Positions 26,824-64,000 of a stretch of DNA of 64,000 nt are shown in pieces. The translations under genes and the position numbers were made by a program. The number at the start of each line of letters is the position of its first letter. Position 1 is the first letter of the stretch. Origin of the DNA: Ustulina deusta (lineage: Eukaryota; Ascomycota; Sordariomycetes; Xylariales; Xylariaceae); NCBI GenBank assembly GCA_023159155.1, contig JAJNNX010000087.1:20003-84002 (forward strand), written 5' to 3'. A model generated the notes under the pieces. It saw only the letters and a list, made by a program, of their open reading frames with translations. It was not told where the DNA came from and made no database searches.

Positions 26824-29800
26824 ATGGGTGGTACTCTAGATGGGCAGAAAACGAATACACATCAATGCAATGACGCAGGCCATTCGGCTGATCTCGGTGC
26901 GCCAACCCACAGACGAAATCAGGCGTCTCTTTCATTGTCCGACAGTGAGGCCCTTCAGAAACTCATGTACCGCATTACTTCGCTGGAAGCGGAGAATCAG
27001 AATTTGAAACTTGTTAATGAAAGTCAAGCAAGGCATCAGTATCTGTATTTTATTGCGGCCGACCCAGGGATACCCCCAGTGGCGTATCTAGATGAACCAA
27101 GGTGGTCAATCGGGCCGAAAGGAGAAATTGTCTTAACAGCTCATTTTCCTATCACAGACATCATGGGTTATTTGGCTCATAAACATGATGTTGCATTTGT
27201 TGCAACACGGCACTATACACCTCAAACACAAGAAAACGAGGTTCAGAGTGCCTCACAGGCGAAACAACTTCTTCCCAAGCCGACGCCGACTAGCGAATAT
27301 ATCCATTTGGAATCTCGGGAGATGATTATGGCAGCGGAGGAATTTTTCCCAAGGCAAGCTACATTTTGTAAGGACTTTCCTCAGTTTAATATCCGAGGGC
27401 CTATTCAGACACCCTACGTCTTCTGGTATTGTTATCGATCACCGGGAGCATTTCAGGGGATGAGCGATCATCACCGACGACTGATGGAGCTGTTGACGTC
27501 ATGGATAGATGGGAACTATGGCAAGACGTATGACGTCGTGGTCAGGCAACAGAAAGAATCGGTGGTTTCGCAAGAAACGATGCCGTCCTTGGTGTGGCCA
27601 GGAGATGTCCTCGTATGGGAAGACAAGCGCGAATCAAAAGCAGCCATCGCTCAGTCATGGCCTAGGCAAATTCCATATCATGCTTTCGTAGGTCGCTAGA
27701 AGAATGGTGTAGATTGGACCAAGGGTTCAATTGTTGAAAATAAAGCGACGTGGAAGTGGTCAGTAGATACATGGAGGTACAAGTATGACGGCCGGTTTTT
27801 TCGGCACAATGAAGCCACCGAGATCGTATTTGAATCCAATTCATCAGCGGACGAAAAGCCCATCCTAAGTCTCAGCGCATACCTGTTACAGTATCCCCCA
27901 AAACGACTGACCTCAACCCTCGAAACTCGAGGCAAAACTTTCTGGCGCTGCCGATACAAGAAACTGGTATCGGACAATGATGGATTTGGATTTCATGCGG
28001 TAATTGTCCCTATATTGAAGTAGTGTGAGTGGATTACGTAAGTAATTACTTACTTAAGCTATATGGTGGCTATGCTGGTGAGAGGGGATAAAACACTATG
28101 AGGAACACTCTTAACAGTAGCTAGAGAATTATTACTAGAGCATGCGCAGATTAATAAAAATTGATTTCTTAATATTCGGTACGCTTGATTAACAGATCCC
28201 CCTAGAAATAATAGCAACTATTATACTAGGAAGTGTAGGTTCGGCCTATTTTTTAGTATATGGGCACTACTATATTGGGACTATCTATGAGTAGTTATTC
28301 ATAGGTGTCCACTTTAATATTCAAAAGTTTTAAACCCGCTACTAACATCTTGGTACCAGAGCTCTGAGAGGTTTATGGTAGACTTTGAAACCTATCGACA
28401 ATTGCATGAAAATTCCGGCCACTTTAAGATGACATACCCAAGCATTGATGGCGCCAAATCTCTGCGAATGGACCTGGAAATGATAAAGTCAGATGATCCA
28501 CCGCTTGCACCAGATATCTACGTCTTTCCTAACACAATCCCGGGATACAATTTAAGGAGCAAGACATGGAGTAAGTATAACAAAGGCATATATTATGGGC
28601 TTGGAACTTAGTCATATTTAGCTAATAATTCTCTAGGGATCTCAAGGTCCATGGCTCCCTTTCTCGAATGTTCGGACTTGGGATTCTCATGGCCTATTTA
28701 TGCCTATTTGCCATTAAGCTATTTAGAATACATTTTGTAACTCTATTAACGCAAAAAACTATTAGGTTTTTTTATATATGCGCATAGTCCATATAACTTT
28801 TAGTTCTTCTAATAAAAGCTTATTTGTTTTTTTATAGGCCTATATATTATACTAATAATATAACTAGCAGTTTAATATATTAATCTATATAATATTATTT
28901 TTTTTTTTTAATGTTTGCTTTTAAGCATTTTTATAATTAAATAATATAAAAGTTTATAAGTTTTGTTAAGTTATATTAATAGAACTAATATATAATTTTT
29001 TTTGTTTTATTATTATATAAATAATTGTAAAATTCTTAAATCTAGTGCTTTTTAGCTAGCTATTTTTTTTATTTAACTAAATATTTTATATTGTTTTAAG
29101 TTTTTAAAAAGTTCTTTATTTTTTTTATTTAGTAATTTTTAGATTTAATTAAAGCTATTTTTTATAAAACTTAATTAGAATTAAATAATATTTAATTGCT
29201 AACGTAATAAAGCTTAATAAACAAAATATAAAAAAAGTTATAAAATTTTTATTTTTTAAATAAAATAAATAAAATAATAATAAAAAAAATAACTTTTTAG
29301 ATTTTAAAAAGTTCTAATATTTTTTTATTAAGTTTTTTTATAAGTTGTTTAGTTTTAATATTTTTAATATTTAATATTACTAATTAGTTCTTAATATAAA
29401 TAAATGTTTTTATTTTTTTTTTATTAGCCTACTTTTTTATTTTTTAGTAGCTTTTTTTTAAATATTTTTATATGTTTTAATAAACTTATATTATTTAATA
29501 TATATATAACTAACTTTTTAAATTATAAAGTATACTAAAAAAAATTATAAGTTATTAAGTAATATTTATAATTTATATAAAATAAAATTATATATATAAA
29601 TATAAATATAGTATTATTATATATAAATTTTTTTAGTTAGTTATTTTATAATTAATAAACGTTTATAAATAGATTTTTAAAAACTAATTAAGTTATTTAG
29701 TTTAATTATTAGTTTAAAAATAAAAAGCTATACTTATATATAGCTTAATTTTTACTAGTTTAAAAAAGTTTTTTTATAAATATATAATAAATTTAAAATT

Positions 29801-32800
29801 TTTATTAGAAATAATATTAAAAAGTATACTATATAATTTTTAATAAACTTTTGCAAATATTTTAATAAAATTATTAATTTTTTTTTTTTAGACTTTTAAA
29901 GCTATAAAATAAGCTATTTTTATAAAAAGGTTAACTATTACTTATATAGAATTACAATTATTTAAAAGAAATAAATCTATAATAAAATTTATTATAACTA
30001 ATTACTATAAACTATAGTAAAGTTTTATAAATTATAGCAGTCTATAAAAAGCATACTATAAGATTTTGTTTTATTAGTATTATAAGCACTTTTATATATA
30101 TTCCTATATTAATATTTTTAAGTTTAACTACTAAAAATTGCAAATAATTAATTCTATAATTTTATTTATACTTATATATCTTATTACTAATATATTATGT
30201 TTAGACTTTATTATATTTTTTTAAATAGTAATAAATATTTATAGCTAGTCCTTTTTATATAATAAACTATTTTATATTTTAATGTTTTTATTAGAGTTTT
30301 TTAGTTATAAAACATATTTAGCATTTTTTTTTCCTGCTTAGCAGACTTTTTTTATAAAGTCTTAATTTTATTATAATATTATTAAACTATATAGCTGTTT
30401 TAATATTAATAAAATTACTATTGCTACTAAAAATAATATACTTTATAAATAAAAAAAGTATTTATTTTATAAAACCGTTTTTATTAGCTAGTTTTTATTT
30501 TTTATTTTTTTAAGGCAATATTAAACTAGTCTAAATATAATATTAGCTTTTTTATTAAGTTATTTTAATTAATAATTAATTATAAACTAATATATAAATA
30601 ATTGCTAGGCTTATTATGCTTATTTATAATTAAGGATTTTTATAGTTATAAAATATATAAAGTTCTAATAATCTAAATAAATCTCGATCCTATACTTAGT
30701 ATTTTTTAAATATTAATATTAGCAATTAAAAAAGTTTATTATAACTAAAAGCTTTTTATTATAGATTTTATAATTTATTTCTGCTAGTATAAGCTTATAT
30801 AAATAAAAAGCAACTAAATATAGTTATTTATTTAGGTTTTTTTATAATAGAACTGCCTTAAAAACAAAATTTAATATATTAGTTTTTATATATATAATTT
30901 TTTCTAAATTAAAATATACTAAAATAAAAGCTGTAATAAATTAGTATTTTAGTTTTTTAAAAGCTTTACTTATTACTTTTATTTATTTTTACTCTTTTTT
31001 ATTTTTTTTATTAGTATTTATAAAAAGTTTAATAATTATTAAAAGTTTTTTAATAAACTATTAATAAAAATTAATAAAACTTATAAACTATTATAATTTT
31101 TATAAAGTATTTAAGGTTTTTTATTTATTAATATAATTTATTTTGTTTAATATTATAAAAATTCTATTAGTTTTAATAATATAGCTTAAAAACTTTACTT
31201 TTTATACTTGTTATTTATATTTTTAAAGGGCAACTATTAAATTATATTATATTAGCTGTTTTAAAACTTTTTTAATTAATTAATTATATTTTTTTAATAT
31301 ATTAGTATAAATTAATAAATTGTTTAAATAAATAAAAAGTCTAATATTAATAAAGTTATAAAATATATTATTTATTATAGCTTAAAAAGTTGCTAGAACG
31401 TTTATAAGTCTTATTAATATAATTATATACTTAAAAAGGCTATATTTGCAACGGAATACTATTTTTTTTTTTTTTTTTTTAATATATATTAAAAAGAATC
31501 TAGATTTTAGGTTAATTTTAGTAAACTATTTAACTATTATAAAGCAAACTTATAGCTTTACAATTAATAGTATTAAATACTAAACTAGGATTATTATACT
31601 ATTTAAGCTTTTATAGTTAACTATAGGTTATAAAAAGTTATTTAAGTTTTTTTTTTTAATAAATATTAAAAAAGCCCTATATAATAAAGTAGATTTCTAA
31701 ATATGCTTAGTTTTTAGTATTTTTTCTAACTATAGTTTTAAAATATTTAATTTTTGTATATTTATAGTATATAATAATCCTTATAGTAATATTTTATTTT
31801 TTATAATATTAATAGTATAGTTTTATAGCTAATAGTTAAATAGCTATTATATAGCTATTTTAGATATAATAAAAAAGAATTCCTAGAACTTTTTAAAAAC
31901 TTAAGTAATAGTAGTATTAGTAGCTTTTTATAAAATAATTATTATAACTTTAGTTATTTTTAGGTTTAAAATAGTTTAACTTATATAATTTTTATAATAA
32001 TATTTTAAAATAAAAATAATTTTTTAAATATTTTTAAAAAAATATATTAATTAATATTATTTTAGCTATTATTAAAAAAAAATTATATTATATTTGTTAT
32101 TTATTTTATTTAGTTTAAAACTAAGCTATATAAAATAATTCTTTTAATATTTAAAAACTATTTTTTTTATATAATACTTGCTTACTTTTTATATATATAT
32201 AATATTAAAAGCTATTATAAATTATAGTTATATTTTTTTAATAAAAAGTAACTTTTATTATTATGTTTAACTAAAAAATATTATTAGTATTAAACTTTTA
32301 GTATTAAGTAGCGCTTAAATAAAATATTTTTTGCTATTATATAAAAACGTTATATATATTATAAAACAATATTTTATTTTAAGTTTTAAGCTAGGTTTTT
32401 TTTTTAAGTTTATTAGTTCTTTTTTAAGTTGCTTAATTACGTTTATTTAAAGTTTATTACTTTAGTTTAGCTTTAAAATTTTATAAAATATAGCATAAAA
32501 ACTTTTTAAAAATTTAAGTTAAACTTGTTTATTTTTATAAACTATAATAATAGTTTAAATATAGCTATTAAAAATATATTTATTTTAGTTTGTTTAATAA
32601 AGTTTAAAAAAAGTTATTTTTTAATTATTTTTTTTTTAGTAATAAAAGTTTTTTTAAGCGCTAGTAGCAAATCTTATCTATTAATATCTTTTTTAGCAAA
32701 ACAAGCAAAAATATTATAATTATTTTATTTATAACGCTAATAGTTAATCTTATTATATTTTTATTAATTAATAATAGTTTAATCTATTTTTTTTAAAATT

Positions 32801-35800
32801 ATTACTACTAAAGCTTATTATTTATTTTTAAAGTTTAGTTTAATTTTGCTATTGGTTTTTTTAAGTATGTTTTTTTTTTAAAATTAGTTATAGCTTAAGT
32901 TAAAACGTTTTTTTTTGCTAAAGTTAGGTTAGCCCAACTTTAAAAACTTTATTATTAAAGTAAGCTTTTTTTTTTTAATATCCTAGGATTAATTAGCATA
33001 TTTTTATATATTTGGCCTGCTTTTTATATAGCTAAAATAAATTCTTTATTAGTTTTTAGCAAGCTTTTTTAATAAAAATAAACTAATTTAATAATATTAT
33101 TAAAAAAAGTTTTAATTATATAATTCTAAAAAATAGTTCTAAACTATTAAATAACTTTATTAAAATTAAAAAGCTTTATAAAATATTAAGCTATGTTTTT
33201 TTTATATTTAAAACTAGTTATTTTTTTAAAGTTCTAATATTATTTAAAGTAGTTTTTAAACTTTTTTTTTAATATATATATATAGTTAAGCTATTAATCT
33301 ATAAAACTTATTTTTTTTATTTATTTAATACGCTACTAGTACTAAGTTTATGTTTTATTTATTAGTAGTAAGCTTACTTAGTTAATTTAATAGTAATTTT
33401 TAAAAAAACTAAATAAATAAAATCTTTAAAAGCTTAGATTAGCTAATTATTAGATCGTAATTTATTATTATTACTATTATTAATTTTTTAAAAACTTTAT
33501 AAAAAAAAAGCAGTAGTCCTTATAAAAGCTTTAATAAACTATTGTTATTATTATTATTTAAGTCCCTTAGGTCCGGGTTAAAAGCTCCGGACAAGCAATA
33601 AAATAGTATAGCTTTTTTATTCCTACTAAATATAAAAAGTCTAACATATACAAAATCAAATTGTATATAGGCTTTTTTAGCTGTTTAGTAAGCTTAAACT
33701 TTCTAAAAAGCTTTATTAATTAGTATTTTTTTTATTTGAGCTTTTAAGCTAAAATATTTAAATAGGGGCTTTTGTAATAAAAAAAACCCTAGTTAGTTAA
33801 TAAAAAGAATAAATATAAGCTTAAAAACTATATATTTTTTAATAGATTCTAAAACAAAATCTATATTTATTTTATAATTAGCTACTAATTAAATATTAAA
33901 CTTATTTAAAATAGCCTAAATATATACCCGGAGATCTTTAATTTATTTGTAAGTAGTTTTGTTATAAATAAAATCAAAATATTCTTAAGCAAACAAATTA
34001 TTAATTTAATTTTTTTTTTACTGCTTATAATATTACTTTTTTTTAAAACTTTTTATATTATTAATAATTTTTCTAAAATATTTTTAAAATTTATTATTAT
34101 TATAAAATTATTTTTTTAAGTTTAATAATAGCTTTTTATTAAATAAAAATATTTTAAGCAAACTTAGTAATAGTTTTTTATATTTTTTAAAAAAACATAA
34201 AACTAAATTGTTTTATTTATTATTAGAACTATTTAATTTGTTTTATAAATATAATAATTTTTATTTAATATATTTATATTATTATATTATAAAAATTATA
34301 TATAATTTTTATTTAATATATTTATATTATTATATTATAAAAATTATATATAATTTTATATTATTTTTTAATTTTTTTTTAGTTTTAATAATAAAAAGCT
34401 TTAATATTATTAATAAAAATATTAATTACTATATAAAAATTATTTATTTGCTAATATAATTTTATAAATTAGTTTAATAAATTAGTAATAATAATATTAG
34501 TTTTAATTAGTTTAATTTAATTTTTTATAATAATATTATATTTTTAAAGGTTATATAAAATAATAATACTAGTATAATTAACTAATAAATCTAATATATT
34601 AGACTTAGTTTTTAAAACATAAAATTTAATTAAAAAACAAAAAATTAATTATAAATAGAAATATTATTATAAAAATAATATGTTTTATATATTATAAATT
34701 AATTATTAATAAGCTATTAGTTTATTAATTGATTTAAATATTTTTTTAAATAGTAATAAAAAAAATATTCTAAGCATATATAAAAAAAAAACAAAAAGTA
34801 ATACTTTTAAAAAGTTTTAATAAAAAAAAACAAAAAAATTAAATAAAAAAACTACTAAAAACTATATTTTACTAAGCATAAAAAATAATTTTTTTGCTAC
34901 TAGTAATACTAAGCTGCTTTAAGCTAATTTGTTTTAAAAGTTTAGTTGTAGTTTAGTACTTTTTAGGTTATTTCTGTTTAAAATTTTGTTTAAGTTTTTT
35001 TTTTTGTTTAAATTTTTATTTAAAGTTTTATTTAGGTCTTTTTTTTCCGGTTTAAAAAAAATACTACTAATAATAACTATAACATAAAATAATAATTAAA
35101 ATATAAAAAGTGCTTTTAAAGCTAATAAGCTATTATTAGTAATAAGTATAAACTAAACTAAAATAATTATAAAATTATAAAAGTTTTTTTAAATAAATAA
35201 AAAATTATTTATAATAAAAGTATATATTATAAGCTTAGAACTTAGTTATATTTAGCTAATAATTTTTTAAAAATTTTAAAGTTTATAGTTCCTTTTTTCG
35301 AATGTTTGGACTTGGGATTTTTATAGCCTATTTATGCCTGTTCGCTATTAGGCTATTTGGAATATATTTTATAACTCTATTAATGCAAAGGACTGTTAGG
35401 TCTCCTTGCATATGCGTATAGTCCGTATGACCTCCAGTCCTTCCAATAAAGGCTTATCCGTTCCCCCGTGGGCCTGCATATTGTACCAACAGCATAGCTA
35501 GCGGCTTGGCATATCGATCCGTATGACAGTAAGTACTATACCACTTTTTGTCTGTTTGCAAGACTAACGGTATGCAGTTGACCTGACGGTCGACAATATA
35601 CAAGAAGTCGTCTGGAACAAGGAATCTTTCGAGTATCTTGTGGTCGAAAACGAGACGAAGGAACTCGTTCAAGCACTTGTTATGCATCAGATTGCCAGCG
35701 AAAAAGGCACCGATATAATCGAACGAAAAGGTAACGGCCTTATCATTCTACTACACGGTGGACCCGGCACTGGTAAGACCCTTACCGCCGAAAGTGTTGC

Positions 35801-36488
35801 GGAGCTTGCCGAGAAGCCCCTATTCCGCGTAACGTGCGGAGATATTGGCACGGAGCCAGAGAAAGTCGAAAAGTATTTGGAATCGGTCCTTCACCTCGGG
35901 AAAACGTGGGGCTGCGTCGTCTTGATAGACGAGGCAGAAGTGTTTCTGGAGCAAAGGAGCCTCGATAACCTCGAACGTAACGCGCTGGTGTCGGTCTTTC
36001 TACGCTTCCTCGAATACTACGAAGGCATCCTTATCCTGACTTCGAACAGGGTGGGAACCTTCGACGAGGCGTTCAAGTCGAGGATCCTTCTTTCCCTGCA
36101 CTACGAGAAATTGACGCGAAGTCAACGCACAAAAATCTGGAAGAAGTTCTTCAAGCGCCTGAAAGAGATTGACGACAGCGCCGCCACCGTAGCGTCTGCT
36201 ACCGAGCCCGGCTCTCTGAAGCGGAAATTTCAAGACGAAAGTACCGGGATCGACTTCGAGGACATAGAGTCTTACATTGACGACCTGGCGGCGGAGGAAT
36301 TGAACGGCCGGCAGATTCGAAACGTCATCACGGCGGGGCGGCAGTACGCTACTTTCAAGAGGGAACCGCTGAGAATCCACCACCTGAAGCACGTAATCAA
36401 AGTGTCTAGCAAGTTCGAGAACTACTTGAAGGATCTTCAGGACGGGCTCTCTGACGACAAAATCATGAAGAGTGACGGGATTAGGTAG
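26824..36488 (+). CDS. AAA+ ATPase (fungal DUF7025-like type), split by a retrotransposon and carrying one stop codon
   Basis: Exons 26824-27999, 28360-28570 and 35578-36488 join in frame to 766 codons. N-terminal part: a coiled-coil stretch (LMYRITSLEAENQNLKLV) and a region typical of large fungal AAA proteins (FMVDFETYRQLH; exon junction KTW-I-DLTVDNIQEVVWN). C-terminal AAA module: Walker A GGPGTGKT (residues 523-530), Walker B VVLIDEAE (Asp580, Glu581), sensor LTSNR and the arginine-rich RSLDNLERNAL. Damage: an in-frame TAG at 27697-27699 (codon 292) reads R-stop-KNGVDW with the frame open on both sides; Gln CAG changed to TAG would explain it. A 6,953-bp LTR element sits inside the third exon's upstream intron exactly behind the exon end. 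The splice signals at both ends survive. Probably a pseudogene. Confidence 0.75.
28038..28053. repeat. Perfect 16-bp palindrome inside AAA intron 1
   Basis: GTAAGTAATTACTTAC is identical to its reverse complement. It sits in a 360-bp intron, far longer than the other introns here, so it may mark a small inserted element. Confidence 0.6.
28571..28575. other. Target site duplication GTAAG (left)
   Basis: Five bases directly before the left LTR, identical to 35529-35533 directly after the right LTR. They are also the first bases of the intron (GTAAGT), so the 5' splice site was the target. Confidence 0.9.
28576..28894. repeat. Left LTR, 319 bp
   Basis: Matches 35210-35528 base for base in length. 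Its outer part (to about 28,730) keeps G and C while its inner part is strongly mutated to A/T. The expected terminal TG appears as TA, consistent with RIP. Confidence 0.88.
35210..35528. repeat. Right LTR, 319 bp
   Basis: Partner of 28576-28894. Here the inner part (to about 35,290) is mutated and the outer part is nearly untouched, ending in the canonical CA. The mirror-image pattern shows mutation fading toward both outer ends. Confidence 0.88.
35529..35533. other. Target site duplication GTAAG (right)
   Basis: Same five bases as 28571-28575. Followed by the rest of the original 49-bp intron (35529-35577), with branch CTAAC and acceptor CAG still present. Confidence 0.9.
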
Positions 36489-50789: not shown

Positions 50790-51548
50790 CAAATAACTTG
50801 GCACTTGGTAAAATAATTGGTATATGAGTATTACATTCAGCTTAATATATTATAATAGAAAGTGAAAAAACCTTAATATATACACAAATAGTAATAACTA
50901 TACCTTTTATACTTTTAATTTTGTATAATATATAAAATAACTTTTTAATATAGTTTATTTTTAATATTTCTGCTTAAAAAAATGCTTTATATTTTTTAGT
51001 TAATTATAAAAATTTTAGTTAATAAAAAAGTTTTTAAACTTTTATAGAATATTTATTTTTGCTATTTTAATACTTTTGTGTGCTATATTTATTATTACTA
51101 ATATAAAATAGCTATAGTTTTTATAAAAATTTTAGTAGTACTTAGTTATTTTTATAATTTTATTATATTTAATTAAATATTATATATATATTTGTTTAAT
51201 ATAAAATATATGTTTTTTTTTATTAAAATAAATTAAAGTAATTTTATTAATACTTTATTGTAAGCTTTTTAAAAAAAATTTTTTTTTTAGGTTTATTTTT
51301 ATATATTTTATATTATTTTTTATTTTAGGTGTAATTTTTAAGTATTTTTTATAAACCTAGTATTTTTTTTAAATTTTTTAAATATATTTTTAAAAAGTAG
51401 TTTAGTTAGTTTGTTTGCTATTATATTTTTTATATAAACTTATTCTAACTATATTATTTTTTGTTTAATTTGTTTATAAATAAAATATATTTAAATATTA
51501 ATATATTAATTTTTATTATATTATATTAAATTTTTTATAAATATAATT
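50790..51548. other. RIP-mutated AT-rich sequence, host of the outer element
   Basis: Almost only A and T, no frames. It starts with the repeat noted at 49,680-49,870 and is presumably an older transposon into which the 51,549 element inserted; TAATT at 51544-51548 is the target duplication. Confidence 0.55.
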
Positions 51549-51688
51549 TATAATAGTTAGTATAGTCTTAGCAAGACCTGCAAGGACTCCAGACCTATAT
51601 AGCAATAAGATAGGAAGTCTATACATAAACTAACTTATAATCTTGCAGCTATATATATAGAGTTTATATTTATTTACTTTATAAACTC

Positions 51689-51719
<31 letters not shown>

Positions 51720-51785
51720 GTTTAGAGTTTTTGTTTATAATATTAATAAACTAGCTATAAAAGCTTTATTTAACTAATTATAATA
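51549..51785. repeat. Outer element, left LTR (237 bp)
   Basis: Pairs with 63257-63495. The first 100 bases keep C and G (for example GCAAGACCTGCAAGGACTCC), the rest is mutated. It contains a long T run whose length differs by about two bases from the right copy. Confidence 0.85.
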
Positions 51786-54700
51786 CTACTTTAAACTTAT
51801 TAATTATTTATTAATAAGTATTTAATAAATATATTTATTTTTATTTTATTATAATTAGCAAAACATAAATAAACTTTTTTTTTAGTTATATATTTAATAT
51901 AAAAAATTATATATTTTATAATATAAACTTAATTTTAATATAACTTTAATAAAAATTTTAATTTTTATATTATTTAAAAGCTAATAATTTATAAAAAACT
52001 TAATTTTAAATATTTTAAATTTATTTTTAATTTTTAAACAATTAAAATAATTTTAGTTTTTAAATATAGCTAGTTTTTTATTATTAAATAATTTAAAAAG
52101 AAAAAGGAAAATTTTGTATTAGACTTTTTTATAAATATTTTAAGCAAACTAATATTTAAAAAAAAATCTAAAAAAAAATAAAAAATTTTAAACTAGAACT
52201 AAAACAATTTAAAATAAATAATATATTTAAAAATATTAATTTTAAATTTTTTGATTTTATTACTTTATTTATTTTTTAGCGCTTTAAACTTTATTTATAT
52301 TAAAAAAACTAAAATATAAAAAATTAATTTTAATAAATTTATAAAAAATAAAACTTTATTTAATAATTAAGTTTATAAATTAATAAAAAAATTAAATAAA
52401 AATATTATTATATTTTAAACTAAAAATAATTAATTTTAATATATTATAAGCTAGTTAAAAAAATATATTAAAAAATTAATAAAAAATTATTTAATAATAT
52501 TATTAAAATAATTTAAGTTTTATTAATAATTTATTATAATTTTAATTAAATAATAATTATTTATAAAATATTTTAAGTTTATATATATAAAACTAATAAA
52601 AATACTAATAAATTTATTTTTATATTTAATAATTTAGCTTAAAAATATTAATTTTTTAAATTATAATAAAAATAAAAATTATAGAACTATTTTTATATAA
52701 ATTTAAATATTTTATATAAATTATTTATTAATAAAATTATTAAATTAATATATAATATTAAATAAGTTTATAAAATTATTAATAAATTAAATTTATAAGT
52801 TTAATTAAATAAAAATTTAATTAATAAAAAAAACTTATAATAAAAATAATTTTAATAGTTTTTTTATTAGTTTTTTTATTTATTTTAATTAAAATATATA
52901 ATTAAAACAAATTAATTATTTTTAAAATATTTATTTAATTATAAATTAATAGTATTAAAATAAAAAGTTCAATTTTATATAATATTAAAACTTATATTTT
53001 TTTAATAATTAATTATAAATTTATATAATAAATTAAATAATAATTAAAAATAATAATAATTTATTTAATTAAACTTTAAAAATTTTATAATTATTAATTT
53101 TAGTTATAATATTATTATTAATATTAAATAATTATTTTAATTAAATAATTTATTTTTATTAATTTAATTTTTGCTAATAATTATAATCGAACTTTTTAGT
53201 TATAAATAATAAAATATAAACCTAAAAATATAAAAAAAATACTAATTAATATAATTAAATATTAAAAAAATATTATGAAATATTAAAATAACTTTTTAAA
53301 AATAGAACAATTATTTTAGGAATAACTAAAAGTAAAAAAAATACAAAAAGTTTATATAATAATTTAAAAAAAAAAAAAACTAAACTATTATTAAAAAAAT
53401 TATATAAAACTTTTAAAATTATTTTTAAAAAAACTTATTATAATTAAGTTTATAATAATTAAAAATAATTAATATTTTATAAAAAAAAGAATTTTTAAAT
53501 TAATTAAATAATATTATAAAATTTTTTTAATAATAAATTAATTTTATTTTTTTAAAAAAAAAAAACTTTAAATATATAAAGTTAATATAAAACTTTTTAT
53601 TTTTTTTTAGCTATTATATTTAAAAAAGATTTAAAAAAAAAATTGAAATTTTATTAATATTATAACTAAAATTTAATATAATACTAAAATTTAATAATAA
53701 AAAATATATTTTTAAATTTTATTAATATCAAATATTTATATAATTTATTTCATTTAAAAAAAAGTTTATAAATAAACTATTAGTTATAAACTTTATTAAA
53801 TAAAATATAAACTTAAATATTATTTTTGTTTTATTTATATTTAAACTTAGGTTAATTAAATATAAATTTATAATTAATTATTAATAAAAAAGTACATATT
53901 TAAAAAATAAAATTATATTAGTTTTAAATATTAGTAATATTATATTTAATTATTATAATATTATTTATTTTATAAAACTAAATATTACTAAAGTTTTTAT
54001 TAATTATTATTAACTATAAAATTATATTAATTCTTTTTTTTAAACTTGCAAAAAAATATTTTAATAAAAAGTTTTATTATTTAGACTAAAAATAAAACTT
54101 CCTTAGTAGCAAACTTTTATTAATATATAAATTTATAAATATTTATATAAACAATATTTTAATTTTTTTTAAAACAATAATTTATTGCTTATATTAAGCT
54201 AAATATAAAAAAAATATTAAAAAGTTTTTTTTAATATTTTTATTATTAATTATTTAAAAATAATTATACAAACTAAAATAAAAATAAAAATTAATTTTAT
54301 GAAAATTTAAGTAATTTTAAATTAAAATTTTAATAATTTTAAAAATATTAAATTAATGTAGTTATTTTTTAAGTTTTATAATTATGTTTATATATTTATT
54401 TATTATACTAGTAAAATTATTATTTTTTTAAATTAATTATTATAAAAAAATAAGCTTTTAAATATATAAAATTATTAATATATAAAATGTTTGTTTTAGT
54501 GTTTTTTAAGCCTAGTTAATTAATATAAATAAAAATAAATATTTTATATAATATAATAAAAAAATATATTTTAAAAATTTATAAAGTAATTTTTAAAAAT
54601 AATAATATTAACTAAATAAGTTTATTTAATTTAAAACTATAAATTTTTAGTAGTAGTATAAATTTTAAAATATTATTATTTAAAGTTTTTTAAAACTAAT

Positions 54701-56162
54701 TTTTTTATAATAATTAATTATTAAGTTTTATTATATTTTTTTAATATAATAAATATATTAGGCTAATTTTTTAGTACTAACTAAAAAAAAAAAAATTAAT
54801 AGCTAATATTTTATTAAAAAAAATAATAAAGCTTTTTATAATAAAAATTAAAAAAAACTACAAAAAAAATAATAATATTAGTCCTTTTTAATAAAATATT
54901 AGGTTTTATATTAATTAAATAAAAAAACTAGCTATAAAATCTGAAAAATAAAAACAAAAAGTTATATATATTTAAAGTTATTTTAAATAAAATTTTTTTT
55001 TATATAACTTTAATTTAAAAAGTTTATATATTTTTAATTATTATATATTAAAGTTAATATAAAATAATTAAAATATTAAAATAAAAATATTATTAGTTTT
55101 ATTTAAAATATAATTATAAAAAAAATAAAATATTATAAAATAAAACTTTTAGTCTTTTTTATTTATTATTTATATTAGCTATAATATAGCAATATATAGT
55201 AATAAATACTAAAAATATATTACTTAACTAATAAAGTTATAATTATATATAAATGTTTATTAATAAGTTTAATTATTTAATTATAATTTTATTTAGCAAA
55301 AAAATAAATATTATAGAATTATTAATTATATAATATTATAAAAATTTATATAGATTTTTTAATATATTAAATATATAAATATTAAATAATATAAAACTAT
55401 TTATTTTTAAGTTTATAGTAATAATTAATAGTTTTATAAGTACTAAGTACTATTTTAATAATATTTATTACTTTTAGACCTAAAAAATAATAAAATTAAT
55501 TAATTAAAAATTAGATTAATAATTTTATTTTTATATTAATAAATATTAAAATAACTAAAATATTTATTTTTTTGTTTTAGATTTTATATATAATATTTTA
55601 TAATATTTATTAAGTAATATATTATTACTAAAAATAATAATAAAAATTAAAATATAAAAAATTTTAATAGTAAATATTAATAAAACTTTTATAAATTTTA
55701 ATATTAAGCAATAAACGTTCAAATTAGTTTATTAAACTTAAAATATTTAAAAAATAATATATAATATAGCAACTTTTATATAAAAATAATATAAGCTATA
55801 AATTAATCAAAAAAATACTTAATAAATTTTAAAATAAAAAATAAAGTTTTTTTTAAAAAAAAAGTTTTATAACATAAATCCTAACTATTAGATTAGATTT
55901 TTAATTAGTTAAACTTTTTAAAATTTTAAAAAAATAAAAGTTTAGCTATATTTTTAATTTGTTTAATTTTTATATAATAAAAAACTTGTTTTATATTAAC
56001 TAATTATAAAAAGCAAGCAATAATCTTTTATTTTAATAAATTTATTTATTATTTTTAGTTAAAAATCTTAATAATAAAATAAAATTTAAAATTAAACAAA
56101 TCAAATAATTAAAAATATATAAAAAAAATAAAAAACTAAAATATTAGGTTATTTAAAAAAGT

Positions 56163-56167
56163 TATAA
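56163..56167. other. Target site duplication TATAA (left)
   Basis: Five bases before the inner left LTR, equal to 62984-62988 after its right LTR. Confidence 0.8.
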
Positions 56168-56428
56168 TAGTTACGGTATGGTGGCTAGTGGCTAGTAGTG
56201 TGGCTATAACCCATAAGTTATATAAACCGCAATTTTTAATGCTTAGGTTATATGATTTATACCTAGCTAGTACTTGGCAATTATCTAACAGCTGCTTATA
56301 TTTCTTATTAATCTATTTATAAAAAACTTATAATATACTTTTGTAAAATTAGCTTTTTTTTTTATACTTAGATTTTAATATAAAGTTTGCTTTTAAAATA
56401 AAGTTTTGTTTTTTAAAATTGTTTAATA
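56168..56428. repeat. Inner element, left LTR (261 bp)
   Basis: Pairs with 62723-62983. The outer end keeps GC (GTTACGGTATGGTGGCTAG) while the inner end is mutated. Confidence 0.88.
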
Positions 56429-59400
56429 TGTAATAATTTAAGTATTACTTTTATAAAGTATATTAGAACTATTTTTAAATATTTTTTTAAACAATTAAAC
56501 AATTTATATATAGCATGCATTATAACTATTTATTATAACTTTAAACTATTTGCTAGGATTTAGTTTTTATTTTAGTAGTATAATATAAACTTAAAAAAAA
56601 TGTGCTTATATAAAAAATATAGCCCGCAAAAAAAAATATTTTTTATTAAATAACTTTAAAAAAAGTATACTTTAATCTAATAAAAAACTTTGCTTTAATA
56701 TATAATAATAATTATTAAATATATTATTTATATAAAAACTTTTATTTAATTAATTTATTATAGCTAAATATAATAATAATAAAAATAAATAACTTATTAT
56801 TATTTAAATAAGTAATAAGTTTAAATAAGCTATTATTAACTTTATTTTTATTAATTATTAATATTATTATAAAAAAAAAAAATTTAAAAAAAAAATTCTA
56901 AACTTAATTAATTAATATATAATAGCTTATATTAAAAAATTTTTTTTTTTTTTTTTTTTGTAGAATTATTTTAAAAATAAAACAAACAATCTTTATATTT
57001 ACAAAACTTATAAACTAGTCTATTTTTAATACTATTTTAAATTATTTAAAAGCTTTGTAGTAAAAATTTAAGTTATAAAATATTATAATAATTATTAATA
57101 TTTAATATATTTTAAATCTATATAAATTATTATAAAAAACTAAAAATAATATAATAAGTTTTTTTAAATAAAATAAATATTGTATTAATTTAAGTACTAA
57201 TAAAAATATTAATTAAAAGATTTTAATTAAAATTTTTTAAATATAATTTATTAAATTTAAGTTTGGTAACTTTAGCTTTTTAACTTATTATATAAATACT
57301 TTTTAATAAATAAACTAGTAATAAACTATTAATTAATTTTTAAACAAATTTAAAATAATAACTACTTAGTATAATAGTTTATAAAATTAAATAATAAAAA
57401 TAAATTAATACATTATAGATTTGATTGCCTAACGCTAATTAATTTTATATTTAAAACAAACTAAAAAAAAGTTTTATAAAACTGCTCGAATATATATAAT
57501 TATTTTTTATAATAATATAACAAAAAATAAAATTAAGTTTAAAATATAATATAAAAATATAAAGAATTATTTTTTTATTAATAAGAATTAGTTTGCTAAT
57601 AATGCTATAAAAATAATAAATATTAAGTCTTATTTTAGAAAAAAAGCTATAAAAAACTTATAGCTCTATTTTAAAAAAATTTATTTAAATTAAATCAAAA
57701 TTTCTATAATACTATTGATTTATTTTTAGAATAATTATTATAATATTAATAAAACTATTAAATCTAAAAAAAAATATAAAAAGTTATTTTTTAAAAGTAA
57801 ATCTTTAGATAAGTTTTTTAAGTTTAAAAATAATTTTGTTTAATTTATTAGTAAGATATGTTTTAAAAAATAAAAATAAAAATAAAAACTTAAAAATTGA
57901 TTTTTAATTTATTTTTATAATAAAACTATATTTAAATATTTAAAAAATAATATTATTTTTAATATTTATATAAAATATATTATTTAAATTGCTTATTAAT
58001 TAAATATTGGCAACTAAAAAAAATATAGTTTATAAAGCTAGAAAATAAACTTTTGCTATAGCTAAAAATAATATAAAAAAAAATAATAATATTAACTAAA
58101 AAAGTAGAATAAACATAAAAAGTAATATAGTATTTATGGTCCAAAGCTTTAAAATTAGTAATAATAAAATAAAAAAGCTAATTTTTTTAAAAAAATGTTT
58201 TAATTACAAATAATAAAAATATATATTAAAAAATTATTTAATAAAAACTAGCATAGCAGCTAATTATAGAACTTAAATAAATATTATATTTACAAAATAT
58301 AGTGGATTAAAGATGCTTATTTTAAAAAATAGTTCTAATAAAGATTATATTAAATTATTAAAAAAGTAATTTTAAATAAAATAGATTTTTATTTAAAAAG
58401 TATATTTTTAGATTATAAAAAAAAAATAATAAATAAGTTTTTTTAAAAAAAAGCTTTTTTTATATATTTGTACTATAAGCAATAATAAATTATTTTTAAT
58501 AATTTATAATTTTTTAAAAAATATAAGAGCTAGACTATATATATTTATAAATATTTGTTTTATTAAAAAAGTTCTATAATAATTATAATTTATTATAATA
58601 AAAATATTATTATATTTTGTAATAAGTTATAATAGCAAAAGTTAATAATTAATTAAGCAAATATTATTAATTAATTTAAAAATCTAAAGCGATATTTTTT
58701 AATAAATTTTTATATTTATATTAAATATATAATATAATGTTATTTTTAGCAAGTTATAGTTTTAAGCTTATAATATTTTATTAAACTATTAATAAAATAG
58801 ATTAGTATTTTTGCTAGATTTATTAACTAAACTTAATCATAAATATAATTTAATAATAAATAATACTAAGAAATAATTATTATATTTTTTTTTTTAAATA
58901 GATATATAATATAAAAATATAAAGTTAAAAAAAGCTATAGAATATTAAAAAAAATAATAGTAAGCCGCAAACTAGTGCAACTAAGCATATAATACTATAT
59001 AATAACTTTATATTAATATTTTAAAAAAAAGTAACTTTACTATAAAAGATATTACTAAAATAGAGAAAAACTTATATAATAGTTTTGTATTATTATCTAA
59101 GTTTACTTATAAAAAAAAAAAAGCAAAAAAGAAATAAGAAAAGCAAAAGTTTAAAAAATATAAATTTTCTTATTAATAGTCTAATATTGCTAATATATAT
59201 TAGTTAAAACATAATAGCATTAGTTAATATAAATATTAATTATAATATATTATAATAAGTGCTATAATATTTAAAAAAATAGTTTAAAAAAATAATTTTT
59301 ATAAAAATATATAGATTACTAGTATTTATTAAGTAGATAAAATAATTAAAGAACATAAGTCTAAAAAGGAACTATTTTTTAAAAAAAAAACAAAAAAATA

Positions 59401-59535
59401 AAAAAAAAAGCCCTAGAACTTATACCTCTAGAATATTATAACTTTTTTTATATTTTTAGCAAAATAGATTCTAATATTTTACTGTTTTACTGCCTACAAA
59501 TAGATTATAAAATAGAATTTATAAATATAAAACTT

Positions 59536-59994
59536 TTGAAAAACTTAAATTATAGCTTTTTATATAAAATATTATTAAATAAATTAGAAACTATAAAAAA
59601 GCATTTTATTAATAATTTATATAAAAGATTTATTAAGCTAAGCAATGCTTTATTTGTAAAAAAACTTTATAGTAGATTTTATTTTTGTATAAATTATTGC
59701 AAATTAAACAAAATTATTAAAAAAAATTGGTATTTTTTATTATTAATTAAAAAAACCTTATTATATATTTTTAAAACTAAAACTTTTACTAAAATTAATA
59801 TAAAATAAGCTTTTTATTATATATAAATATATTTAAAACAAAAAAACTTTATAATATTTTATATTTATTATAGTATATATTATTATTATATTTTTTTGTT
59901 TGGTTTTATTAATAGCTTTTTTATATTTTAAAAATATATTAATAATATTTTATTTAATTATTTAAATAATTTTTGTAGCGCTTACGTAAATAAT
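59536..59994 (+). pseudogene. Ty3/gypsy reverse transcriptase remnant
   Basis: An open stretch to 59808 keeps the RT blocks in mutated form: IKKHFINNLYKRFIKLSNA, ALFVKK, FCINYCKLN (family: FCVDYRxLN) and FTKINIK (family: FTKIDLR). In the same frame at 59974-60009 follows CSAYVNNIFIYSNN, the YxDDIL(V/I)YS block, in which both catalytic Asp codons have become Asn (GA-to-AA, the RIP direction). Stops lie between. Without the aspartates it cannot polymerise DNA. Confidence 0.8.
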
Positions 59995-60628
59995 ATTTTT
60001 ATTTATTCTAATAATTTAAAAAAATACTAAGTATATATAAAAAAAGTTTTTATTTGATTGCGATCCGCTAGCTTATAAGCGGACCTTAAAAAGTTAAAAT
60101 TTTATATAATTAAAACTAAGTTTTTAGGTATATTATTAGTACTAAAAATATATAGGTTAACTTAGCTAAAATTATTATAATATATAATTAGGAAATATTT
60201 ATAACTATAAAAAAAGTTTAATTTTTTTAAGTTTTTATAACTTTTGTTAAAAATTTATAAAAAATTATAGTAGAACAAGAGCTTTTTTTAATTATTTAAT
60301 AAAAAAAAAAGTATTGTTTAAATAAATTAAATAATATAAAAAAGCTTTTTAAAAGTTAAAAAAAAGTCTTTATATTAACTTTTATTTTTAAATATTTTAA
60401 TTATAAACTATTTACTAAAATAAAAACGAACATTTTTAATAATATAATAATAAAAATTATATTCTAGTTATATAATAATAAATAATATTTTATTATATTT
60501 TATTTTAAAACTATATATAATACTAAATTAAATTATAATATTTATAATAAAAAAAATTAATAGTAGCTCTAGTACTTAAAAAATAGCAAACTAAACTAAT
60601 TAGTAATTATAATTATTTTTTAGTTTTT

Positions 60629-60772
60629 ATAGACTATAAGGCATTAAAGTATTTTAGCAAGAAATAATATTTTAATTTAAAACAAGCTAAATAAATATTT
60701 TTATTTTTTAAATATAATTTTTTAATTATTTACTAACTTAGAAAAGAAAATATAGTAGTAAACGTAATGTTT
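60629..60772 (+). pseudogene. Ty3/gypsy RNase H remnant
   Basis: One frame reads DYKALKYFSKK, NLKQAK and RKENIVVNVM, corresponding to the family's TDHKxLxYF, LNxRQARW and GKENxVADALSR blocks. It is broken by stop codons. It lies downstream of the RT as expected, confirming element type and orientation. Confidence 0.7.
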
Positions 60773-62710
60773 TATAAATAAAAAAATCTTTAAATATAAA
60801 CTAAAAAAAAAAAGCGTATAAACATATAACTTTATTTAGATTTATATATAATATTTTTTTATTTTAAAAAAATAATATTATAATATTATATAAAATATAA
60901 CTTTATATTAACTTAGAATAACTAAAAAGCGATTAGTTAATAAATTATATTTTATATAAAAATAGGATAAACTTTAATATAAAGATTTACTAATAAAAAG
61001 TTAGAATAAATATAAAAAATAATTTATAAGTTATTAAAAAAGGACTTATAATTTTTAAAAATAGATTAGTTATTCCGGACGTTTTATATTTATATATATA
61101 ACTAATCAAAAAAATATATAATAGAATACTAACTATATACTTTAGAAAAAAAAAATTGTTTATTTAATAATATTAGTAGCTAAAAATAATAAAAGATTAT
61201 AATATACATATAGCTAATTATTTAAAATACTATTTAGCTAATGTATTAAAAAATAAAACTTTTAGCAAATTATGTTTGTTTTTAATATTTAATAAGGTAT
61301 AAAAATACTTAGTAATAAATTTTAAATAAATACTTAAAGATTAATATAGTTATAATAATATATTAGTAATAATTAATTAGTTACACAAACAAGCATAAAT
61401 AATTTTTTATATAATATAAGCTATGTTTAAAAATATAGTTTATATATATTATAAAGGCCCTTTTAAAATATTTGGAGTATTTATAATAATTACTTTAAAT
61501 AAAGGACTATAGTTTATATTTATATTTATAAATAAACTATATAAACTAATAAGTATAATTTATATTTTAGCTTTAATAAAATATTATAAAACAATAGAAC
61601 AAGCAGAAATTATAAACAAATATTTTAACTAAAAGTTAAAACTTTATATAAACTATTATTAAAATAGTTAGTCTAAAAAAATATTTATTATAAATTATAT
61701 ATAAGTAGCCTTACTATATAAGTTTATAAGCTTAGCGCTTTATAAAATAAAAATAGAATTTTTAATACTGTTCTATTTTGATTAAAAGAACAAAACAGCT
61801 AAAAAAGAAATAAACAAATTATTAATACAAAAAAAAGTTCTACAAGAAAACATATAAAAAAGGGCTAAAAAAATAGTCTAGTTTATTAATATAGCTAAAT
61901 TATATTTATAAAATATATAAGATTATATAATATAGTAAGCTAATAAAAACTATAAAAATTTTAATTTTAATATAAAAGATTATATATTTATACTAAAAAA
62001 ATAATAAAGCTAAAAAATAAATTGCTTGTTTAATAAGTTTGACTATTTAATAATATAACAAATATTTAAAATTTTAATATATATTAATAATATTTTTATA
62101 TTTAAAATTTTTTTTTTAGCAAGCTATAAACAAATATTATACTAATAGATTATAAAAATATTTTAATAACTTATTACTAAAGTAAAAAGCAAAAAATCTA
62201 AAAAATAAAATAATTAAGCTAAAAAACAAAAAAAAGTTATAATAAAAAAAATAAAAACTTTAAAGATATATTATAAAAAACTATAATATTAAATTAATTA
62301 AAAGAGCTAAAATATTAATAATAAATAGTATTTAATAAAAAACTTTAAAAATAGTACAAAAGCGCTAAAAAAATTTTATAATAAAAACTCTAAATTAGCA
62401 GGGCTACTAATAAAGTTAAAAAAATAGCTAAAAGCTACAAAAAATAATAAATTTAATAAAATATACTTTAATAATAATAAAACTATACTAAAAAATATAA
62501 AAAAGTTTTAATAAAAATATATATATAAAATAACTTTATATTTAAGTTATAATATAACAAAATTTATTAATATTATATATAAAAAACCCTATTTAATAAC
62601 GTAATAAAATAAAAGCCTAGATCAAAATTAATAAGTAAATATTTAAAGCTATTTTTTTTTTAGTTAGAAAATATTTGTTTAAATATATATAAATATATAT
62701 ATATATTTTT

Positions 62711-62722
62711 TATAAGGGGGGT
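62711..62722 (+). other. Polypurine tract of the inner element
   Basis: TATAAGGGGGGG-like run ending directly at the first base of the right LTR; it primes plus-strand DNA synthesis in LTR elements. The G run stands out in A/T-only surroundings. Confidence 0.7.
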
Positions 62723-62983
62723 AGTTATAATATAGTAGCTAGTAGCTAGTAGTGTAGCTATAACCTATAAGCTATATAAACTATAATTTTTAATTCTTAA
62801 GTTATATAATTTATACTTAGCTAGTACTTAGCAATGATTTAATAGCTGCTTATATTTTTTATTAATCTATTTATAAAAAACTTACAACATATTTTTATAA
62901 AATTAGTTTTTTTTTTTTATACTTAGATTTTAATACAAAGTTTGCTTTCGGAATAAAGCTTTGCTTTTTGTGATTGTTTAACA
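62723..62983. repeat. Inner element, right LTR (261 bp)
   Basis: Same length as the left copy. The outer end is little mutated (TTTCGGAATAAAGCTTTGC) and finishes in AACA. Confidence 0.88.
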
Positions 62984-62988
62984 TATAA
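62984..62988. other. Target site duplication TATAA (right)
   Basis: Directly follows the inner right LTR. Outer-element sequence resumes afterwards, up to its own right LTR at 63257. Confidence 0.8.
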
Positions 62989-63256
62989 TAATAATTTTAA
63001 TAATATTTAGTATATAGCTTAAAATTATAAAAATATATTAATTAAGCTTGATTAATTTTATAAAATTTATAAAAAAAATATTTAAATTGTTTATAAAATT
63101 ATAAAAATAAATATATATAATAGTAACTAATAAATTTTTAAATAATTATAAAAATAATAATAAAGTAGTATAATATAAAAAAATTATATAAATTTAATAT
63201 TATTAGTAATTTTGAGTTAAAACTATGTTTAAATTTTTAGTTTTAAAAAAAAATAA

Positions 63257-63397
63257 TATAATAGTTAGTATAGTTTTAGCAAAATTTGCAAAATTTTTAA
63301 ACTTATATAGTAATAAAATAAAAAGTTTATATATAAATTAACTTATAACTTTGTAGCTATATATATAAAGTTTATATCTATTTATTTTATAAACTCT

Positions 63398-63428
<31 letters not shown>

Positions 63429-63495
63429 AGCTTAGAGTCTTTGTCTATAGTATTAATAAACTAGCTATGGAAACTTTACTTAACTGATCGTAACA
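63257..63495. repeat. Outer element, right LTR (239 bp)
   Basis: Pairs with 51549-51785. Its inner part is mutated. The outer part (CTTAGAGTCTTTGTC, then GATCGTAACA at the end) is almost unmutated. The TAATT target duplication follows at 63496-63500. Confidence 0.85.
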
Positions 63496-63500
63496 TAATT

Positions 63501-64000
63501 AATCTTTAATTATTATTATAAATTATTACTATACTTAGTTTTTTAATTATTATTGCTTCTTTATTATTATTTTTTAATTTATGCTTAGTTTGCTATATAA
63601 GCAAGTTAGCTACATAACTTTTTTAACTATATTAGTAATTTTTTTATCTCTTATTTTATATATAAATAAAACTATAGTTTATTATAGTTTAAATAACTAA
63701 TTAATTATATTGCTGCTTAAATTAAAAATATATTTTAAAATTAACTCTTATATATTTAAATCTTTCTTTTAGTTTATATTAATCTAGCTTATTAATACTT
63801 TTAATAGTTTTTTTAAATATTAAGTAGTATGCTTTAGTTTTTAAAAAATATTATCATATTTGTTTAATTACTATTTTATATATTAAGATTAGATTTAATA
63901 TATATTTACTAATATATAAAACAATAAATTTAATATCTAGTTATATATTTATTATTAAATATATTAAAAATCTAACTATAGATTAATACTTATATTTATT
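63501..64000. other. AT-rich, RIP-mutated sequence to the window end
   Basis: Continuation of the DNA into which the outer element inserted. Almost only A and T, no frames, no ends recognised. The tract runs beyond the window. Confidence 0.5.

Follow-up and report, generated by a model that had tools for sequence, protein, structure and literature searches.

In the 64,000-nucleotide stretch of the Ustulina deusta genome analysed here (the window; C110:20003-84002 in the 56-Mb assembly), a Ty3/gypsy-like long terminal repeat (LTR) retrotransposon lies exactly at the start of the second intron of a predicted AAA+ ATPase gene, and its 5-bp target duplication, GTAAG, has doubled the 5' splice site. 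We consider it probable that this is an ordinary chance insertion of such an element at the start of an intron, followed by repeat-induced point mutation (RIP), and that the gene is now broken. On this account the element would have inserted antisense to the gene, the 5-bp staggered cut falling by chance over the first five bases of a short intron, and would then have been mutated by RIP as its sister copies were. Splicing would use either the downstream donor, by intron definition, or the upstream donor paired with a cryptic acceptor (28636), and transcripts may also terminate within the AT-rich element; in each case the AAA+ domain would be lost.

An LTR element on a duplicated 5' splice site

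The sequence GTAAG is present at 28571-28575 and again at 35529-35533 (plus strand), and the 6,953 bp between the two copies (28576-35528) form the LTR element proposed in the preliminary description of this locus, bounded by two LTRs of 319 bp. Removal of the element and one GTAAG leaves a 49-bp phase-1 intron (35529-35577, plus strand), GTAAGTACT...CTAAC...CAG, with the donor GTAAGT, the CTAAC motif and the acceptor CAG, whose flanking exons join as KTW-I-DLTVDN. The right GTAAG is the downstream 5' splice site of this complete original intron, and the left one is an upstream 5' splice site that takes its T from the LTR, so that both donors, at 28571 and 35529, read GTAAGT. The earlier claims that GTAAG is the first five bases of an intron in an AAA+ ATPase gene, that a normal 49-bp intron is left when the element is removed, and that the left copy still reads GTAAGT with branch site and acceptor kept on the right are all borne out, the first by paralogues that share the intron position, the second by sequence together with homologue alignment and the third directly in the sequence. 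No exon base has been lost at the site.

The KTW-I-DLTVDN junction is continuous in 14 of the 16 homologues that were aligned out of 58 proteins found; the remaining two are gapped there (P0005 immediately after the W and P0017 a residue further on), which could reflect mis-modelled introns. The 49-bp intron is evidently older than the element, because two paralogues in the same genome, on which the empty-site comparison rests, contain an intron that matches it in codon and phase. Their translations, read by eye, give the junctions KKW-V with donor GTGAGG (L096, contig C103) and RSY-D with donor GTAAGT (L098, contig C113). A third paralogue (L097, contig C63) seems to have its intron placed elsewhere, and four paralogous stretches (C91:1416401, C45:220861, C2:910249 and C70:334093) read through the site in a single frame that leaves no space for one, so that the intron is not universal.

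The element shows the pattern of RIP, like its sister copies, since only transitions separate its LTRs and its internal GC content is 12%. Comparison of the left (28576-28894) with the right LTR (35210-35528) gives 241 identical positions of 319, 78 transitions, no transversions and no gaps, and among 17 LTR pairs from the family there are 13 transversions altogether, each pair having 53-88 transitions. The internal region (28895-35209, minus strand, 12.4% GC) has a TpA/ApT index of 1.38 and a (CpA+TpG)/(ApC+GpT) index of 0.31, the usual RIP thresholds being above 0.89 and below 1.03, respectively. By the same indices exons 1 and 2 of the host gene carry no RIP signal (exon 1, 0.54 and 1.34), whereas leakage of RIP from the element into exon 3 is possible, because its values of 0.92 and 0.78 would pass these thresholds; its GC content is 51% and its frame is open. 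TG..CA termini are found in the sister copies, the solo LTRs C78 and C99 among them, and the TA with which the window's left LTR begins is consistent with RIP.

Identity and orientation were read from the sister copies and from what is left of the coding region. RVT_1 matches were found in 2 of the 18 non-solo copies (C76 and C29), on the strand opposite the LTR frame and 3.95-4.44 kb from the 5' end of the element. In the window a degenerate reverse transcriptase-like stretch (31160-31525, minus strand, with YLNNLLIY at 31307-31330) was recognised by eye on that same strand, 4.00-4.37 kb from the element's 5' end; by its motif it reads as a reverse transcriptase of Ty3/gypsy type. Because this stretch and the RVT_1 matches of the sister copies share place and strand, the element most likely lies in antisense orientation relative to the host gene, so that, read on the minus strand, the right LTR is its 5' LTR and the left one its 3' LTR; the poly-T adjoining the left LTR fits the polypurine tract of a minus-strand element, and no primer binding site was recognised. 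Weighing against the assignment, a Pfam search of the window's reverse transcriptase pieces returned chance-level matches only and no reverse transcriptase, and most of the 18 non-solo copies have no RVT_1 match. Ty1/copia was rejected, as none of the 104 RVT_2 matches in the genome lies inside the listed copies and two copies contain RVT_1 matches. The element is best described as a Ty3/gypsy-like LTR retrotransposon.

Splicing and the fate of the host gene

The host gene, which extends further than the preliminary description had indicated, is predicted to be a fungal DUF7025/AAA+ ATPase with three exons on the plus strand (26824-27999, 28360-28570 and 35578-36488). Exon 3 encodes an AAA domain (PF00004, E 1.2e-17) and AAA_lid_13 (PF23232, E 2.3e-9) in Pfam, and in exon 1, which is placed by homologue alignment, the DUF7025 match (PF22942) falls below the cut-off in the piece searched (23 against 27 bits). 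AAA, the fungal lid and DUF7025 all occur in homologues that align over most of the length at up to 62% identity, and the best named homologues are fungal. Exon 2 is likewise placed by homologue alignment, and its joining to exon 1 across intron 1 (28000-28359) is shown by homologues that align across FHA-SSERF. Exon 1 contains a premature in-frame TAG (27697-27699) at a poorly conserved alignment position; its removal as part of a tiny intron was rejected, the candidate picked by eye (27688-27712) being 25 nt long and frame-shifting.

The two donors present the same six intron bases at 49 nt and 7,007 nt from a shared acceptor. Short introns in fungi are recognised mainly through intron definition, according to the accessible text of PMC2397502, and because a complete 49-nt intron is intact on the right the near donor should outcompete the far one, leaving the element in the RNA. 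The preliminary description had a 49-bp intron becoming one of 7,007 bp with coding bases untouched. The span of 28571-35577 is indeed 7,007 bp and the adjoining exons are complete at the site, but the lengthening itself is doubtful and probably did not occur, as the 49-bp intron survives downstream. Read-through from exon 2 into the element meets a stop after KTWSKYNKGIYYGLGT. Alternatively, the upstream GTAAGT, with CTAAT and CTAG inside the LTR, is predicted from sequence to form a cryptic 66-nt intron (28571-28636, plus strand), the use of which would lead to a stop after 34 codons. Either predicted splice choice, the downstream donor or the cryptic acceptor at 28636, would thus cost the protein its AAA+ domain. 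The plus strand of the element also contains 63 AATAAA, and premature termination in Neurospora is attributed, in the accessible part of PMC5869017, to intragenic motifs that resemble poly(A) signals. Given this expected loss of the AAA+ domain and the TAG in exon 1, the host gene has most likely become a pseudogene in this strain. Set against a broken gene, the frames of exons 2 and 3 are uninterrupted and their AAA+ motifs preserved, so that function may have been lost only recently, and the TAG, which falls at a variable position, may be a polymorphism of the strain or an error in the assembly.

It is unlikely, though conceivable, that the gene was already dead when the element arrived, in which case the position in an intron would have no selective meaning. 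The TAG at 27697-27699 is present in this assembly, but the order of events cannot be told, and each of the gene's two introns carries an insertion although the introns make up only ~105 of ~2,400 bp, a pattern suggestive of selection at the time against insertions into exons, subject to a strong ascertainment bias.

We also think it improbable that the insertion was near-neutral, as the preliminary description had considered, with the upstream donor and the old branch site and acceptor removing a 7,007-nt intron together with the whole element and leaving the protein unchanged there. Every splice signal needed for this is present, the exon sequence at the site is unaltered and the two exons concerned are open; an equally good donor nevertheless lies just 49 nt from the acceptor, where the shortness of fungal introns and intron definition would favour it, and the AATAAA motifs and the cryptic acceptor near the upstream donor weigh against a full-length intron. 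The in-frame TAG makes near-neutrality doubtful in any case, since it already breaks the frame of exon 1 in this assembly. Insertions of transposable elements into introns have been surveyed in another fungus, reportedly, to judge by its strain name, Zymoseptoria tritici. They were strongly under-represented there, with small introns and disrupted splicing as the likely causes, as far as the accessible text of PMC8445621 goes; a further study states, in its accessible part, that most of the fungal assemblies used lacked inner gene structures, so that the position of transposable elements within genes could not be studied (PMC6416283). That the duplicated donor is a working two-way choice, in which the upstream donor removes the 7-kb element and the downstream donor keeps it, thereby setting the gene's output, seems very improbable; if true, a 7-kb RIP-mutated retrotransposon would be removed as one exceptionally long fungal intron.

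The insertion in intron 1 is a 301-bp dispersed repeat (28016-28316, plus strand) with the ends TGAAGT..ACTTYA, flanked by ATAT at 28012-28015 and 28317-28320; without it and one 4-bp duplication, intron 1 is 55 bp long. The repeat has at least 42 match rows in the genome including the window's own (best 40 of 140 candidates scored). Of the 20 copies inspected, 12 are in register at both ends and have matching 4-bp duplications (8 ATAT, 3 CTAT, two of which share one flank, and 1 ATAC), 4 have both ends and no matching duplication, and 4 were not resolved. It looks like a miniature inverted-repeat transposable element or a solo LTR with a real target preference. Elsewhere in the window, the last 13 kb (51000-64000) form an AT-rich block of 5-14% GC with RIP-like indices.

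Target choice across the family

Copies of the retrotransposon family were collected by three LTR searches of the genome (best 40 of 41, 53 and 63 candidates scored), which yielded, as a lower bound, 20 resolved insertions. Two LTRs were present in 17 of these, including one divided between two contigs; another had an interrupted right LTR (C91, the end of which was read from L092), and the remaining two were solo LTRs. The split insertion joins C84 and C88, counted as one because their contig ends share GTCGA. We left out C16, the right flank of which is identical to that of C107, and three diverged copies, C29:728917, C45:189661 and C50:259798. The first two of these were not resolved; the third (L094) is a diverged solo LTR from a related subfamily, and CCTAC can be read by eye on either side of it. 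Two of these pairs bear on the assembly itself: C84:11251 and C88:260171 are seemingly two ends of one element, and their contigs are probably neighbours in the genome, while C16:21315 and C107:53759 have the same LTR end and an identical 30-base flank, as in a duplicated contig or a segmental duplication.

All 20 target duplications are 5 bp long and all are different, 19 of them being exact and that of C38 having one mismatch (AGATG/AGATA). GTAAG occurs once, in the window. The tabulation of sister-copy targets thus revealed no enrichment of GTAAG, and the earlier suggestion of an integration preference for GTAAG or donor-like sites finds no support in 20 different duplications from 20 insertions. 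Because the targets all differ, the family does not seem to seek donors, and GTAAG is merely an acceptable target.

Some figures nevertheless weigh in favour of an integrase that prefers DNA resembling a 5' splice site, an explanation to which we give very little credence. Agreement with GTAAG is 1.89 of 5 bases in the other 19 targets, compared with 1.19 in 950 five-base flank words (P ~0.002 oriented, 0.018 on either strand), and in the target matrix GTAAG ties for 6th of 1024 words when oriented and ranks 12th when symmetric, with position weight matrix likelihood ratios of 7.0 and 4.3. Against this, there is no second GTAAG among the 20, only 2 of the other 19 targets start with GT, and the resemblance comes down to an A/T core (42 of 57 bases at positions 2-4) with G at the 3' end; the symmetric ranking is led by CTTAG and CTAAG. 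In addition, the insertion point at 5 of the 20 joined sites lies within a stop-free frame of 204-757 aa (325-757 aa at four of them), which suggests that these insertions fell in exons; these lengths have no random baseline, and the C91 site had just 101 bases on its right. Any preference of the family would appear to be weak and to concern an A/T-rich core, under which GTAAG scores ~4-fold over background, and as a case of targeting the locus matters little, given no donor preference in 20 insertions.

The register of the insertion is unusual. If the genome has ~25,000 introns, a figure obtained from an assumed ~14,000 genes and published densities (1.7-1.8 listed for M. grisea and N. crassa in the accessible text of PMC2397502), an insertion would cover exactly the first five bases of an intron with an estimated chance of ~0.04%, or ~1% for 20 insertions, and such a fit is expected somewhere across all the elements of the genome and all the windows scanned. 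The strict pattern GTAAGT-CTAAC-CAG itself occurs 351 times, against 148 for a reversed control.

Relation to known systems

Titles and abstract openings in the open-licence literature yielded no description of an LTR element with a target duplication that is a splice donor. The locus constitutes a clean natural test of splice-site competition, since both donors were made by one insertion, and it could reveal how rigidly a filamentous fungus adheres to intron definition. The element otherwise resembles the RIP-mutated Ty3/gypsy elements of filamentous fungi in the TG..CA ends of its sister copies, its 5-bp duplication, the RVT_1 matches in two copies, the solo LTRs and the RIP signature, and differs from them in that the window copy sits exactly on a 5' splice site. 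In the maize waxy gene retrotransposons are reportedly inserted in introns, which is said to give a comparable situation of an LTR element inside a host intron with competing splice choices; plants, however, tolerate longer introns, whereas at this locus a short intron, complete and with a donor of its own, stands beside the element. Introners, as portrayed in the accessible part of PMC9860276, likewise have a target duplication that contains a splice site. They create new introns, whereas the intron at this locus pre-existed according to L096 and L098, and identity as an Introner was rejected on that ground. The [D1,2] stwintrons of Xylariales, as far as they are set out in the accessible text of PMC12403724, also have one acceptor shared by two donors in a fungal gene, but in the present case no internal intron splits a donor: both GTAAGT are uninterrupted, and the second donor comes from the target duplication.

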